Assembly: GCA_932294295.1 (NCBI GenBank)
Contig: OW028584.1
Coordinates: forward strand, 33,117,969 to 33,181,968
Origin: Alitta virens
Taxonomy: Eukaryota > Annelida > Polychaeta > Phyllodocida > Nereididae
Length of the DNA stretch: 64,000 bases
Direction: 5' to 3'
The notes beneath the pieces were generated by a model that had not been told where the DNA came from, searched no databases, and saw only the letters and a list, made by a program, of their open reading frames with translations. The translations under genes were made by a program, and so were the position numbers. Numbering within the stretch: the first letter of the stretch is position 1; each line of letters begins with the position of its first letter. Positions 45,722 through 54,315 of this stretch are shown piece after piece.

Positions 45722-45728
45722 GTCAAAT

Positions 45729-45756
45729 CATGGAGTTATAGCACTAGAGACGCAAC
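45729..45756 (+). repeat. Left terminal inverted repeat of the P-type element
   Basis: 28 bp, one mismatch to the right end. The outer 17 bases also form the scar at 15529-15545. It lies 119 bp before the transposase start codon, so it may overlap the promoter. Confidence 0.9.
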
Positions 45757-45847
45757 TGTGCTGATTTTGTGTTAGGCGCCAAAATATGTTGCGGCGCGCA
45801 TGCGCGAGTGTGTTCGTGCATTGGTTCCTTCCTGTTGTTTGCTCAGC

Positions 45848-48800
45848 ATGGGAGGTGCGAACTGTGCTGTGTTCGGTTGCCACTGCAACAAAGCCAAAAG
45901 CCGTGGACTTACGTTTTTTCGTTTGAAAACACTGACTGGACAGCCAGGAGATCCCGCAGAGAGGTCAGAGGAGTGGCGACAACGATTGTTTTTCTTGTGC
46001 AAGAGGGATCCCCCCTTCAACCATGACACTGCTCACATGTGTTCCAGACATTTCTCGCAGGATTGTCTGCAGATGACAGGTTAGTTGTTTACTAATGTGA
46101 AATTTAACTGGATCATAGTCTATTTATTCATGATTAAATAAGACAATTTAACAAATTTAGCAAAAACTAGGGGAAAATGCTAGTGCATGTGCTGTCGTAA
46201 ACACTCGGCGTGGCTTAAAAAGGAGTGTCGGAGCAAAACTGACCATGCCACTAGGTTGAAAATGAGTTTAGGAATGTAAAAACCTTTGAATTTTTCAGAT
46301 CGGACAAATAATAACAATTTTTATGCACAAAACCTGTGATGAGATATAATGATAATGATTGCTGTCAATAGAAATACAGTCAAACCTATGCTATGTTAAA
46401 CGGTCACCTAAGCAAGCATAAAACTTAAAAGTGAATGAGCAATGTGGCCATTCAACTGACGTATGTTGTTGCCAATCGTTGGTCACCTATTACCAATGTA
46501 CATAATATTGTTGCTGCAGGCAATTTAAGATAGCAGTGGTGATATGCAGGTCATTCAACTGACTGCTTAAGATAGGTGAGGGTGGCCATTTAAGGGGTGA
46601 GACAATGTATAAAGGTGGCCCTTAGGCTTAGGGCAGGTTTGACTGTAGTCTGTTAAATTAGAAGAAATTTTAAAAATTAGGCAACAGTTCTGGACTGATA
46701 CCTTTTTTTAACTTGCTTTACTAGCAAGGGGCTACAAGCTAGTTCCTTATAGCATGCCCACACTTTTCATGCCTGGCAACACAACAAAACAGAGAAAACC
46801 TCCTGTAAGATCATAAAATGTTGTGTTATCTCTGCTTTTGAATTCGGAGGTATTTGTTATTGTCAAATGTTGGGTTGTATATTTTACATTTACCGTTGGT
46901 TTTGCATTTATAGTTATTTGTTTTTTGTTTGTCACACGTTTTTTTCAAAACACTGCACGTGCGACAGTGAAACTGTGAGCCTGTGGCAATCAGCAAAGTT
47001 ACTGCAATCAATGCTTGAAATCAAATCTTTTCATTCAAAATGTTTTGATTCTGCCCCTAGCTGGTGTTATTATCGCCTGCAACTTTGCTGACAGCTACAA
47101 CTTCGCTGTCGTGCACTGTATCAGCTAGATTTGCCAAAGTAAAGACAACCTAACTGAAATACATGTGACTTTTCGGTTCATATATTATTGAGGGCTAATG
47201 TGACATATTCAATAATTTAAATATTGTAGTCTTTTACTTAACCAGAAAATGAAGTAAGAAAAAGAGTCACAAAGGAAAAAAAATTTGATAAGAGAAGAAC
47301 ATTTGGTTGATTATTATGATAGTTGATCTATGCAGCACACCAGGTCATTATACTCTAATACTGGAGAAGTAAGATGTCTGTAATTTGTTTTGTTTCAGGT
47401 TGAGAGGCCACCTCCACCTATTCCAGAGAGGGTCTGGTATGAAAGCCTGGATGAGGTTAGGAGGGATGCTTCAGCGTTAGTTGTGCCATGGGTACACCTG
47501 AACAAATCAGAAGGACATGTGTGTGTCGGCAAACTGCACGACAGCAAGTTTCTGTATACCAAAATAGATATCTCTGCTGATTTCACAGCAGATGTATTCA
47601 TACGAGGTAATGTATTGCTATTTTTATGACGTGCAGAATTGTATTTCCTAATAGGAACAATTTCCAAAAAATGAGACAATAACTTATTCATACTGAATTT
47701 GCAGGTTGCAAGATATTGCAAGAGGATGTTGCAAAGATTGGTTTGAAGCAGCTCCTGTATAATGTGGAGGCTTTGTCACTATGTCCTGGTGTTACAGAGA
47801 AAGAACTCCAAAATCAACCTGAAGTCCTCCATGAAAAGTGGTTTCGTGAAACCTACTTTGAAGGTACGTGTTATCAAAGCTTTGCTTAAAATTGGCATTA
47901 TTTGTATTATATATATAGGCTTGTCAAAATGCCTTCTTAGTCTGACTAATAATTTTCACTAGGCTACCAAAAAAAGTTATTATTCTGTAATGTCTATACA
48001 CATTTTTGCTCACACGGAGGTAGAGCTTTGATAAAAAGTGAGTTCCTGGGAGTACATAAAAATATAGATTTAACATTTGCATATCAAAGCCAAGGCTTGT
48101 AATTGGGCGAATTTGGTAATCAAATATTGGTAAGAAATGAAAGTTCTAAAAAAAGTTGTTTTTTCATACAGGTGGTGCCGTTATCTCTGTGATACGTGCC
48201 AAGGAATGTTCCCAGATCAGTGACCATCCTGGGAAAACATGTGTGAAGTGTATGGATACAAGAGCTCTACTGCTGAAGAGGAATAGACCCGGACCTGCCC
48301 TTCTTCATCCAAAGGCGCCAATGTCCAAATTAAAGAACAAGAATCTGCTTGTAGATGAGGTGGCCAATCTGCGCCGACACCAAAAAGAACTGGAGCAGAA
48401 AATAGCAGATGAGAGTGTCAATGTCTCAACCGATGTTCATGAAGACCTGCTCCAGTTTTATAAGACCAAGCTGGTGAAAGAGCAGATGAGCCCGTTTGTA
48501 CGCTTGTTTTGGGAAGAGCAAGAAAAAGCTTTTACCCAGAAAAATAAAGGTAAGGCATGATATTTGTATCTTTCTAACACATGTTTAAATTCAGATGCAA
48601 ATTTGTATAACTTTTTAATCCAATATTTTGGTTTTTTATCCAGGAATGAGATGGCATCCTATGCTCATCAAGTTTGCCGTCATGTTGCGACACCAGAGTC
48701 CAGCTTTATACAAGACTCTGAGAGAAACTGGTGTTTTACGTCTCCCAGGAGAAAGTACGTTGCGGGACTACACAGGCGTCTTTCCCGCTGCGCCAGGATT

Positions 48801-51031
48801 CCAACCACACGTTCTGCAGGACCTGGCACTCAAGGCCTCAACTTTGGCTGGAAAAGACAAGTTTGTGTGTCTACTGCACGACGAAATGAAAATCTGCAAG
48901 GATCTTGTCTTCAGCAAAAAAACAGATTCCCTCATTGGCTATGTCACCTCAGAGCAGTTCGACCCTGGACAAGTGAGTATTATGTTTGTAACAAAAAAAT
49001 TTTGAGCTGGCAAATAATTTTCCTGAAATTCCAATTTACAATATACACTATTTCAATGGATATATCATATAGTCGGAAGAAGTATTGAAAGAAAAAAAGA
49101 CCAAGATTTGCATTACGCTCATGCTACAGTACCTCCTAGACCTGAAAAATAGTCCTGGTTATTAGTGTTCATTATTTACTGTGTTTCAGGACATTGATAA
49201 AAATTTAGCTGAAGATGTTCTCCTGTTCATGGTTGTGGGTGTAACTTCTGACATCCACGCATCCATCGGATACTTTGGCACAAAGGGGGCAAAGGCTGGA
49301 GTGCTGTACAAGCTTTTCTGGGACGCAGTGTGTTACATCGAAGTTTCCTGTGGTTTGAAAGTAAGTTTAATACTGACATCAACTACTGTGTACTGTGCAT
49401 GATGCAAGTGACTCTTTGGATGCAATGAGCATAATATATAATTGTACATTTTCAGGTGTTGGCCTCGACTTCTGACAAAGCGTCAACAAACATGAAGTTT
49501 TACAGCATGCATGGCGTGGAGTCTTCCAGTGAGGTGACATACAAGACACTTAATTTGTATGCGGAAGATGAGCGCTATATTTTTTTCATCTCAGATGTTC
49601 CCCATCTTCTGAAGACGCTCAGGAACAACTTGTTCAATTCACGGGGAAACAAAGGCAAAAGGCTCTTAAAGGTTATTATACTAAACTTATAGTTTGCTTG
49701 CAATTGATCTGCATGTTCAATTTATTGGCTGATTTGTAATGCAGCATATATTTAATTTCAGAAAGGGGGTAGCTTTCTTACCTGGGACATGATCATTAAA
49801 TTCTGGGAAAAGGACATCAGTGGACACATGTTTCGAACAAAGATTACTTATGATCATGTCTTTCTAACTCCGCAAAGTAAAATGAAAGTGAAGCTTGCTG
49901 CCCAGGTAAAATAGTTTAAAACGATGAAAATAGAATTTTCTGATGGTTTTTTTTCTGTGTTTGTTGATTGAGTTTCAGCTGTTCTTTCTGTAATTAATCA
50001 CAGGTAACTATTTTTAGGTTCTGAGCGAGTCTTTTGGCAAAGTTCTTGAGGAGTATGGTGATGCTGATGTGCAAGAGATGGCCACTCTTATCCTGCTGAC
50101 GGACAAATTCTTTGATGCGATGAATGTTCGCTCACATTCAGAGGCGGCCAAGAAACGGAAACCATTCTGTGAGCCGTATACATCTGGTGATGATGATAGA
50201 TTTCAGGTAAATTTGGTATATCATCAATTGAATAATCTAAGTAGTAGATGTGCATCTTTGAATTTCACATCAAAGCTAATACAAATATCCTGATTATTTG
50301 CATTAAGCAGGTATTATTTAAGCATTTGTAAAATGTGTAAAATAAAATATCAAGGTTTCTTAATTCACAGTGGTTGGAGGAAGTTTTCCTAAAGTACTTC
50401 TTTGACTGGGACAAAGAGGTGGCTGCCATGACCAATCTGAAAGCTGCACAGAAAGCTAAATTTTTCATCAGCAAACCCACTTTTAATGGATTAATTATGA
50501 CAGGTACGGGTTTACAACAAAATCATTTATCAATTGTTTTTCAGAAATTTAAAATTTATCAAAGGTTTTTCAGCAGTTTCATGATAATAACGTAATGCAT
50601 TGTTTATTTGTTATTATTTTGTAGTGCGCTCCATAACAGAAGCAACTCGTTTTCTGCTGATGCAAGGTGTAAATTTCGTTTACACAAACAGATTTTGTCA
50701 AGATCCTGTTGAGGAGGCATTCGGTCGCCATAGGGCAATGGGACGACGTAGTGATAACATGAACCTCCATATGTTTGGGTACGTACGAACATTAAAACAG
50801 TGAAAATTCTATACTTTTATTTAGGCAGTCATAAAATTGCATGGATCTATTTGTTTAATACATTTCTTTTATAATATTTAAACTTGCAGACATCAGGAGA
50901 GATCACTGCATCTTCAAGGACTACTACAACGTCAGTTCAAACCAAGGGGAAATGTTACCATCAGCCAAAATGAAGAAATCGAGATCTTTGATGCAAAGTT
51001 GCCAAAAATCACCAGGAAAAGGAAACTTTGA
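45848..51031 (+). CDS. THAP-domain P-element-type transposase, about 820 residues
   Basis: Exons: 45848-46079, probably 47246-47253, 47399-47606, 47705-47863, 48172-48549, 48644-48972, 49190-49360, 49456-49671, 49762-49905, 50018-50206, 50371-50503, 50625-50778 and 50890-51031. All have GT...AG ends and open frames. Without the 8-bp microexon, exons 1 and 2 do not join in phase. Residues 1-77 are a THAP zinc finger (C6, C11, C65, H68, with W43). A coiled-coil-like stretch lies in exon 48172 ([16 protein letters not shown]). RWHP and LLHDEMKI (D near 408), [14 protein letters not shown] (D near 542) and [11 protein letters not shown] (acidic near 752) match the RNase H-like core and C-terminal acidic block of P transposases. 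It would bind the element ends and cut and paste them in the nucleus. The many introns resemble THAP9 more than the Drosophila P element. Confidence 0.9.
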
Positions 51032-51449
51032 ATATTTATTTGGCCCTACATATGTGGACATGTATGCATTGTCGTCATTAAATGCATTATAATAACCTTA
51101 ATCAATATCAGACGGACTACCTGATTTTTAATTTGAGATTCATGTTTGGGCAATGTTTGGAATTGTATTGAGATATATGATATAATGGATAAACAATTTT
51201 AACTTTTAGGAGCAGTTTTTACTGTGAATTCTGTTAACTTTGTTTCGAGTTGTGAAAAAATGTAACTTTGGCAGACTCAACATTGGGAAGGTTTACTATG
51301 TTATAACACTATTGCTAATTGGAATCTGACATTTGTCGCTATGTAAAATTCGCCCGATAGGAAAAGTTTGCAACAAAAACAGGTTATGCTAGCCTTTACT
51401 GAAAGATCATTTATGTGATATCGTGAATGAGGTCATATAGTTTTATGTT

Positions 51450-54176
51450 CTAGTTTGTCAGATTTTTTCGAAGAGCTTTTTGACGTTTCAATATATGGTG
51501 CTGCCTGCGAAAGTTTTCCATTACCTGACGGCAATAGCCATTTATCCTGGTTTTAGTGTAGGCTGTGACAAGATTAAGAAATACTTTATCCTTTAATTTT
51601 TCACAGTTACTATCAATGGCTTCTTGAAATATTTTGCACAATCTTTCATCATTGCAGACTTCACCAACAATGCCATCAATAGATATCATAGTGACATTTT
51701 TGCCTGTGTATTTTCTCTATTCAAGTTTAGTGAACACTGGTATAATGCAGGGCTCCACCGACAATAATCCTCCCCGCTGCTTGGTACAGATCAGTTGTGA
51801 TGTGCATTCTTCACTTTCTTGTGTAATGCTCTTTATGATATCAAGTTCTTGATGTTTAAGTTGCCCATCTGCTTGGTTCTGAGCTATTTTTCTTGCTCGG
51901 TGAAGAGCAAACCCTGCAATATACTCAATGATATCCTTGTCCTCATCACTAACAGGGTCTGGATCACTTGGAGTTGTAAGGGGCAGGTTGAAGTTCTCAT
52001 TCAGGAGATCGTTCATTATGATTCTTGATAAACTTGCCAAGACTGGTTTTGGTACTTGTGGACTTGCACATTGCTTTATGTATTGATGGTACTTGGACCA
52101 TGCTGCCTCGCGAGATTTCACCAAAAATGGTTTCTTGTCTTTCAGACAACAGTTTAGCCACTGTAGATCATTCAGCAAGTCTTTGCAATGAAAAAAAAAA
52201 GAGTAAATGTTTAATGTAGAATTATGTGATTCTATAATGATCACTGCAGGTGCAACACGATGTATGAGTATGCTTGATGAACTTTTAGCACTGCCTTTCC
52301 TTAAAATATGTGAGATGATATCAACATATATGAAAGATAATAAAGACCATGAATTGTATATAAAATGACTGTGTTGGTATATTGATTTTTAATAAAATAT
52401 TGATTTTGGCATTCAGCATTTCCAGGTATAAACCATAGTTGGGAGTCAAATTTTGGTATAAATCCCATTGATAGGCTAAACAAATAAAAAAACATTGGCA
52501 AGAGGGGGGGGTCTGGATTTTCAGAACCTTTCCACCCCTTCTTGCTTTCATTTTGGTAAGAAATAGGCCTACATTGAGTACTACAGAGAATGCAATACAT
52601 AGAAACTAAACCAGCACTTGAAAAATCAGGTAGTGTTGAAAACTCTGGACCCATACAAAGAGATTGTCTGGATTTTCAGAACCTTTCCACCCCTTCTTGC
52701 TTTCATTTTGGTAAGAAATAGGCCTACATTGAGTACTACAGAGAATGCAATACATAGTAACTAAACCAGCACTTGAAAAATCAGGTAGTGTTGAATACTC
52801 TGGATCCATACAAAGAGTAAATAAACCCTGTTGCTTTAACATAGTTCAAAATATTCACCTTTGCTGCTTTTTGCTCTGAGAGCAGTTTTAAAGGCCTCGG
52901 GTAACATAATGTCCTGAAGTATTTCATCTCTGCCTTTTCTGACATGCTCAACAGACAACTGAGCAATGTTCCGTGGTCCCTATAAATAGGTGATACATTT
53001 TGAAGTTTATTTGATTCCAATCTCTATACTATAAGCAATGATAAGGACAAAATATCTTGCATCTATTTAAGTATGTGTAGAATTCACAAATCAGCACACA
53101 AGAAATGAAAAATTTATGTCAATTCAACACTTTATTTTAGACACATGTATTTAAATAAGTCCCATGTCAATATTAAGGACTACAATAATATAAAACAGTA
53201 ACAGTGCAATCTTAAATCGAGAGTTGTTCCATTTTTCAAGTGTGGGGTGGGGTTGGGGGATTAGGATGTATTTTTATTGACCTGCTGCCCCACTTACGTA
53301 GATAAATATATATTGTGGGCAACCCCTCTCTATCTTGCAGACCTGTCTGTTTTTTGTTTAGAAAAAGCCTTACAGTCGATTCCACAGTACGAATCTGTAC
53401 ATGTATTTAATTCCCAGTAATATTTTTATCTTCAGAAAACTATTTTGTCTCTTTAATAAGGATCTATCCAAGTGATGCTCTTTTGACATTACAATAATAT
53501 ATATCAATCTACATAAGTGGGGCAGCAGGTGCATTGGCTTGTTTACTCGTCAAAGTACGCACTGCATCAATCTCATTTTCTTCTTCTTCGTCCAATGCAA
53601 GATTCATGCATTCCCATGGGTTGTCCTGTCAAAAAAATAATTAAAAATTGTTAAACAGACAATGGCAATAACATTGACCTTGCACGACAATTCAATAAAC
53701 TTCTGTTTGACTTGACCCCAAGGCCACACTTGTTTGATCTTTAGCTTCTCCAATCCTCTCGGGGGCAATTTTTTTTATTTCTGATAACTAATGTAATTTC
53801 CAGTATAGATATCTACATATATGATATATGAAGTTTATGGGCTGTCATAAACCAAACTGAAGTGACACAATTAGCTGTCACGGATAATAGCTGTCATGGG
53901 TAATCAACTTGACTGGATATAAATTACAAATATTAGTATTCAGTGATATATATTTGCACATAACCCCCCCCCCCCACACATACACACTTATATATGATTT
54001 TGTCAAATTGTATTCAGCCGTGATTTTGCTTGTGCATCCTGAGCCTTGCCGGTTACAATAACGACTCAGGAACTAAGCTTAAGCACTCAAACTACTTAGG
54101 AACTCTCTATACAAAGCTTTCAAGTGTATATGTAGTATCAAAATGAAAAACATACCTCAAAATCAGCCTCAGCCAT
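51450..54176 (-). CDS. Second, convergent gene of the P-type element; function unknown
   Basis: Minus-strand exons: 54156-54176 (MAEADFE), 53509-53625, 52859-52979 and a last exon 52180 down to a TAG at 51717-51719. The same frame continues open to 51450. Exon phases fit for 1-2 and 3-4. Exon 2 can end at its own TAG, giving a 45-residue acidic peptide, or splice from a GTGCGT donor inside it to exon 3 in phase. The long form has LLNDLQWLNC, REAAWSKYHQY, EYIAGFALHRARKIA and KQRGGLLSVEP. The YIAGF and RGGL blocks resemble the C-terminal parts of several transposon-encoded proteins. The tail after the TAG (VFLNLVTAYTKTRINGY, ALRKNL) looks like part of the same protein. I do not recognise a function. 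It starts 132 bp inside the right terminal repeat. Confidence 0.65.
52511..52817. repeat. 155-bp tandem duplication inside the element
   Basis: Two direct copies, starting GTCTGGATTTTCAGAACCTT at 52511 and 52666, are nearly identical. They lie in an intron of the minus-strand gene. High identity suggests a recent event. Confidence 0.9.
53280..53535. repeat. Inverted repeat at the end of minus-strand exon 2
   Basis: CCTGCTGCCCCACTTACGTA near 53281 and its near complement near 53512-53533 form arms of about 35 bp around about 190 bp. The right arm contains the end of exon 2 (codons for PAAPLM and the stop). No target duplication was seen. Confidence 0.65.
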
Positions 54177-54219
54177 CTCTCGTGTCCCTTCAGCAATTTG
54201 TTTACACAGCGCCGGAAGT

Positions 54220-54308
54220 AACTAATGCACGAAGACGGTGGCGCCGCCACAACCTGAACATAAATTGCCTTGGCCAATTGGTTGTGTCTCTAGTGCTATA
54301 ACTCCATG
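54220..54308 (-). repeat. Right terminal and subterminal repeats of the P-type element
   Basis: The 28-bp terminal repeat (54281-54308) and the subterminal motif (54220-54233) lie 0 and 75 bp from the right end, against 0 and 84 bp at the left. A GGCGCC also occurs near both ends. Confidence 0.85.
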
Positions 54309-54315
54309 GTCAAAT

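Follow-up and report, generated by a model that had tools for sequence, protein, structure and literature searches.

The stretch of DNA analyzed here, hereafter the window, spans 64 kb (C12:33117969-33181968) of the 671-Mb genome of Alitta virens. It harbors a P element of 8,580 bp (45729-54308), the 28-nt inverted arms of which pair at 27 of 28 positions in the repeat scan; the end pattern, with one free position, matches twice in the 64-kb window and not once in 100 shuffles. Two convergent genes lie inside these ends: the plus-strand gene starts with an ATG 119 bp inside the left end, and the minus-strand gene facing it starts with an ATG (54176) 132 bp inside the right end (Table 1). An earlier note had described the ends, their perfect GTCAAAT duplications, the 8.58-kb unit and the two gene starts, all of which are borne out by the repeat scan and the sequence. 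It had also called the two-gene element apparently complete; this holds for the layout, but an in-frame TAG at 51717-51719 disrupts the second gene of the window copy.

Table 1. Features of the two-gene P element (positions in the window)
Feature	Position	Strand	Basis or remark
Left 7-bp target-site duplication GTCAAAT	45722..45728		sequence read
Left terminal inverted repeat, 28 bp	45729..45756	+	repeat scan, pattern search
Left subterminal inverted repeat TTCGTGCATT, 10 nt, +84	45813..45822	+	
Catalytic subunit gene, 13 predicted exons, 844 aa	45848..51031	+	
Exons 1-7	45848-46079, 46725-46804, 47399-47606, 47705-47863, 48172-48549, 48644-48972, 49190-49360	+	
Exons 8-13	49456-49671, 49762-49905, 50018-50206, 50371-50503, 50625-50778, 50890-51031	+	
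Partner exon 4, C-terminal domain module	51450..52180	-	in-frame TAG; best-supported exon
152-nt unit, two copies, spacing 155, partner intron 3	52511..52817		repeat scan
Partner exon 3	52859..52979	-	inferred splice sites
Fold-back sequence, 251 bp, 35-nt arms, partner intron 2	53280..53530		repeat scan
Partner exon 2, acidic	53563..53625	-	inferred
Partner exon 1, ATG at 54176	54156..54176	-	inferred
Right subterminal inverted repeat, 10 nt, +75	54224..54233	-	
Right terminal inverted repeat, 28 bp	54281..54308	-	repeat scan, pattern search
Right 7-bp target-site duplication GTCAAAT	54309..54315		sequence read; perfect match to left one

Two sibling copies, on C4 and C7 (L039 and L040), match the window copy at 99.2% identity across the first 6.9 kb, share its ends and are flanked by 7-bp duplications of their own, GTCTGAC and GTTGAAT, respectively; in both, the plus gene and exon 4 of the minus-strand partner gene are open. 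Both of these fully read siblings (2/2) hold the two genes within matching ends, in agreement with the earlier note's expectation for full copies. At the tandem unit in partner intron 3, the C4 and C7 copies are shorter by 147 and 155 nt; at the fold-back sequence, they align without a gap of 5 nt or longer, so that the fold-back probably predates the spread of the copies. We also observed clustered copies of the window family and of related families, several of them broken, in G000:C12:1.3-2.6 Mb. The fold-back inside a partner intron might be read as a trace of a nested, unrelated element that supplied the minus gene. The chance of this is negligible, given that the repeat scan of the window uncovered no inverted-end pair around the minus gene alone, in line with the earlier note's reading of one unit, and that the arrangement recurs in divergent families, in two of which (L043 and L071) it lies inside their own ends.

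The open multi-exon THAP transposase of the earlier note was recovered in the plus gene, where 13 predicted exons join into a stop-free frame of 844 aa. The THAP and DDE residues are intact, and all predicted introns follow the GT-AG rule. Pfam domains over the cut-offs are THAP, TNP-like RNaseH_N and the GTP-binding insertion domain. The THAP domain occupies residues 6-92 (PF05485 profile positions 1-87, E = 3e-7), with C2CH residues read from the sequence as C6, C11, C65 and H68, and is completed by the 80-nt predicted exon 46725-46804, which provides its MPTLF end; the N-terminal THAP domain of the P superfamily, with C2CH and an AVPTIF-like end, is thus present. The RNase H DDE core and the GTP-binding insertion match PF21787 (6e-26) and PF21788 (1e-11), and D432, D526 and E776 align with the DDE positions of the fly P transposase, which we take to be catalytic. 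The top PDB match of the protein is the catalytic chain of the Drosophila P transposase (6p5a_A, E = 1.2e-8), and the helix-turn-helix domain Tnp_P_element (PF12017) scores 18.1 bits (E = 0.0037) against a cut-off of 23. The protein ends 68 residues past E776, without a C-terminal domain (CTD), and its gene has its own stop codon after a basic tail. Two homologues from other contigs (P0002 and P0003) end 67 residues past their catalytic Glu; in this genome's fused P transposases, 264-265 residues follow it. The usual P layout, with core and CTD in one polypeptide, is absent here, and the CTD is encoded on the opposite strand.

By homology, the minus gene, which we call the partner, encodes the C-terminal domain of a P transposase. 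Its exons 1-3 were delineated from splice sites and stretches common to the copies. The protein homology extends 88 codons past the TAG, and the alignment with P0001 (47% over 245 columns), the one partner homologue among 1101 candidates from protein databases, crosses it. Exon 4 is stop-free in 9 of 13 close loci (L009-L021, 94-100% identical over the exon); the stops fall in L009, which is the window copy, and in L016, L017 and L018, the open stretches of which span the position of the window's TAG, with their stops elsewhere. A stop at this place is found in the window copy alone among the 13 loci. A profile of the partner family hits chain 6p5a_B, which is the CTD in the Drosophila P transposase structure (E = 2.4e-6), and the CTD homology of the partners is seen by profile, profile-profile comparison, Pfam (one family) and fold. 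P0001 carries a precomputed PF22824 (THAP9_C) match, which was absent from our own Pfam scans of P0001 and is thus taken as supporting only. Pfam scans of the window's partner returned nothing related; MHC_I_2, IFT122 and similar names were chance matches with scores under the cut-offs. The longer-protein search yielded no partner homologue among 1178 candidates, no relatives were found on viral contigs, and none of the 39 THAP9_C matches in the genome coincides with the loci from the partner search.

Two readings of the minus gene can be weighed against these data. Two-gene eukaryotic transposons exist, and the transposon could have picked up the partner as an accessory gene of unrelated origin, comparable to the second proteins that certain Kolobok elements encode, one of which is described on the complementary strand (PMC9587614). 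The several lines of CTD homology largely refute this idea, leaving it very unlikely. Alternatively, as the two halves add up to one P transposase, trans-splicing or an unseen splice might join them into a single normal message. We regard this as more improbable still: the two genes face each other from opposite strands, the plus gene terminates at its own stop, and the partner begins separately, close to the element end on its side, with several predicted 5' exons, as does that of L043.

A genome search with the plus protein produced 118 matches, which merge into 29 loci; with 54 of 819 candidates scored, the counts are a lower bound and no census. A convergent partner is present at 27 of the 29 loci (one of them partial), a convergent fragment at one and none at one, and no same-strand partner match lies within 9 kb of any of the 29. 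The window family accounts for 14 of 14 loci (partial at C4:10299291), in line with the earlier note, and a second family, with its own partner (L071) as the query, for 12 of 12; at C7:14340343, the convergent partner was matched by the window-partner search. The fragment, at C7:29451547, is a convergent exon 3, and the locus at which no partner was found is degenerate (C6:25122149, L072). L072 is a P-type copy in which one segment is repeated; alongside lies an ORF that, from our reading of the translation, resembles reverse transcriptase. In the control, 28 of the 39 fused-type CTDs (THAP9_C) sit downstream of a THAP match and on its strand, none sits opposite one, and the remaining 11 have no THAP match within 7 kb among the 150 THAP matches listed. 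Compared with the same 150 listed matches, the 82 partner matches divide, with double counting possible, into 7 convergent, 4 same-strand downstream, 4 same-strand upstream and 68 with none. Three of the four downstream matches are exons of the C2:62349684 copy near the THAP match C2:62344604, and this copy includes a THAP exon of its own, C2:62355779, on the opposite strand; the fourth, C6:15961032, belongs to a locus (L074) with opposite-strand RNase H exons. Of the 23 partner loci of divergent families, 7 have a THAP match facing them at up to 7 kb and 15 have no THAP match, again among the 150 listed. The THAP match at C3:38438407 is on the partner's own strand, on the side opposite to the fused layout; at C6:15961032, both strands carry one.

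The convergent split occurs in at least 6 divergent families (window, L043, L071, L044/L074, L073 and C7:14335854/14340343), and L033 may be a seventh. In three of them (window, L043 and L071), paired ends and 7-bp duplications enclose both genes. The L043 family has perfect 31-bp ends, GTTTAAA duplications and a subterminal inverted repeat of 11 nt at +85/+87, with the transposase on the plus strand and the partner, its last exon 27% identical to that of the window, on the minus strand. The L071 family has perfect 30-bp ends, CAAATTC duplications and convergent genes, with no subterminal inverted repeat of 9 nt or more, and its partner exons are open in 12 of 15 close loci. A second, outer pair of ends at L071:123-7819 (25/25 CTTGGAGGAATTAGAGAAGGAGAGG), with perfect GTTGTGA duplications, also encloses both genes; the inner element stops 39 bp short of the outer right end, as if inserted into a related element. 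L044/L074 and L073 show the same convergent gene order, and no ends were found for them. Partners of the four aligned families are 23-34% identical to that of the window family, and those of L071 and L043 are 21% identical to each other over the aligned part. Partner-like open frames at C8:32373854, C1:66743876 and C1:12876041 (298-332 aa, 29-34% to the L071 partner) suggest further candidate split families.

The fused L063 and L064 each consist of one open frame of 816-818 aa, with core and CTD (including THAP9_C) on the same strand. Many fused P transposase copies (L063, L064 and the THAP9_C loci) were seen, such that fused and split P elements coexist in this genome. In a tree of 15 of 16 rows (L033 was dropped as too short and L031 left out), a long branch separates window, L043, L044, L071, L073 and L074 from the fused L063 and L064. 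L072 and P0005-P0007, placed in neither the split nor the fused group, also fall on the split-family side, so that the tree allows, but does not prove, a single origin of the split. Substitution rates are weak evidence, since near-identical copies differ too little: dN and dS are 0.017 and 0.048 for L010-L019 and 0.014 and 0.053 for L043-L054, dN/dS exceeds 1 for L019-L021, L045-L047 pairs have zero synonymous changes, and dN is the larger value in several L048-L053 pairs, with few changes involved. In comparisons across families, dS is saturated.

Collectively, homology, gene order, common ends, 7-bp duplications and recurrence in at least 6 families demonstrate a split architecture, and the window element is very probably a P-superfamily cut-and-paste transposon with its transposase divided between two facing genes. 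The plus gene would provide a catalytic subunit, comprising THAP, the RNase H DDE core and the GTP-binding insertion and ending just past the core, and the minus gene would provide the C-terminal domain as a separate protein. The two proteins would meet and co-assemble in trans at the inverted ends, where the partner, presumably binding both the catalytic subunit and the end DNA, would take the place that the CTD has in the Drosophila transpososome. A mobile copy would then need both genes, and a need for both subunits, as we propose, would explain why both are kept. As the start of either gene lies a short way inside the corresponding end, each end may act as a promoter, possibly under THAP binding. 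The split would predate the divergence of these families or have arisen more than once. We consider it likely, if with less assurance than the split itself, that these elements form an ancient P lineage with an obligate two-protein transposase, core and CTD being expressed from facing end promoters, in which both ends and both genes are needed to jump and convergent transcripts may limit transposition.

The main rival holds that the partner is a CTD-derived regulator and not a needed subunit, the detached CTD competing with or repressing transposition. A truncated P product is described as a known repressor in flies (PMC7776569), convergent transcription could allow antisense control, and the window and L043 partners are 27% identical, compared with 34-53% for most transposase pieces. 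However, the catalytic proteins with examined C-termini have no CTD of their own, so the partner fills a gap and does not add a second copy, and its exons are often open, in 9 of 13 window-family and 12 of 15 close L071-family loci. Regulation by a free CTD thus appears unlikely, although it is less improbable than the other alternatives. If the two-subunit reading is true, these elements represent a eukaryotic DDE transposase that is naturally split, a two-component, switchable system in which the separately made CTD can be added, removed or swapped to ask about its role in excision and integration. The split further suggests that mobility can persist, and families diverge, with the parts of a transposase encoded on opposite strands.

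Among known systems, maize MuDR also has two convergent genes, each beginning near one end, but it belongs to another superfamily, generates 9-bp duplications and has a second gene that is not known to be a piece of the transposase; the duplication of the window element is 7 bp and not 9 bp. Galileo is not known to carry more than one transposase gene and differs from the window element by its long terminal inverted repeats. As here, the target duplications of this P-superfamily transposon of Drosophila are described as 7 bp (PMC2775673). Kolobok elements reportedly encode a DDE transposase and several accessory proteins, one of them encoded on the complementary strand (PMC9587614), but their second proteins are unrelated and their target duplications are TTAA, which the window element lacks, having GTCAAAT, with other 7-bp duplications at related copies. 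The inverted ends and 7-8 bp duplications of the P superfamily are found here, with 7 bp in the window copy, its two siblings, L043 and L071, and subterminal inverted repeats are present in the window element and L043. The Drosophila P element and zebrafish THAP9/Pdre2 share with the window element THAP, the DDE RNase H core, the GTP-binding insertion, terminal and subterminal inverted repeats and target duplications. In these two, the CTD, which in Drosophila P is homologous to the partner family, is described within the same protein, and duplications are 8 bp (PMC7776569, PMC10983969), unlike the two convergent genes, separate CTD and 7-bp duplications reported here. In the Drosophila transpososome, the CTD sits on the looped transferred DNA strand as part of the core's own protein, and the fused L063 and L064 of the present genome have the same domains, but with core and CTD in one same-strand frame. 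No P element with a separate CTD gene is described in the titles and abstract openings listed by searches of the open-licence literature. Two-gene eukaryotic transposons and 7-bp duplications in the P superfamily are already known, whereas a P transposase split between facing genes appears to be new, as the earlier note had suggested of a dedicated convergent partner gene, to which our analysis adds the CTD identity of that partner.
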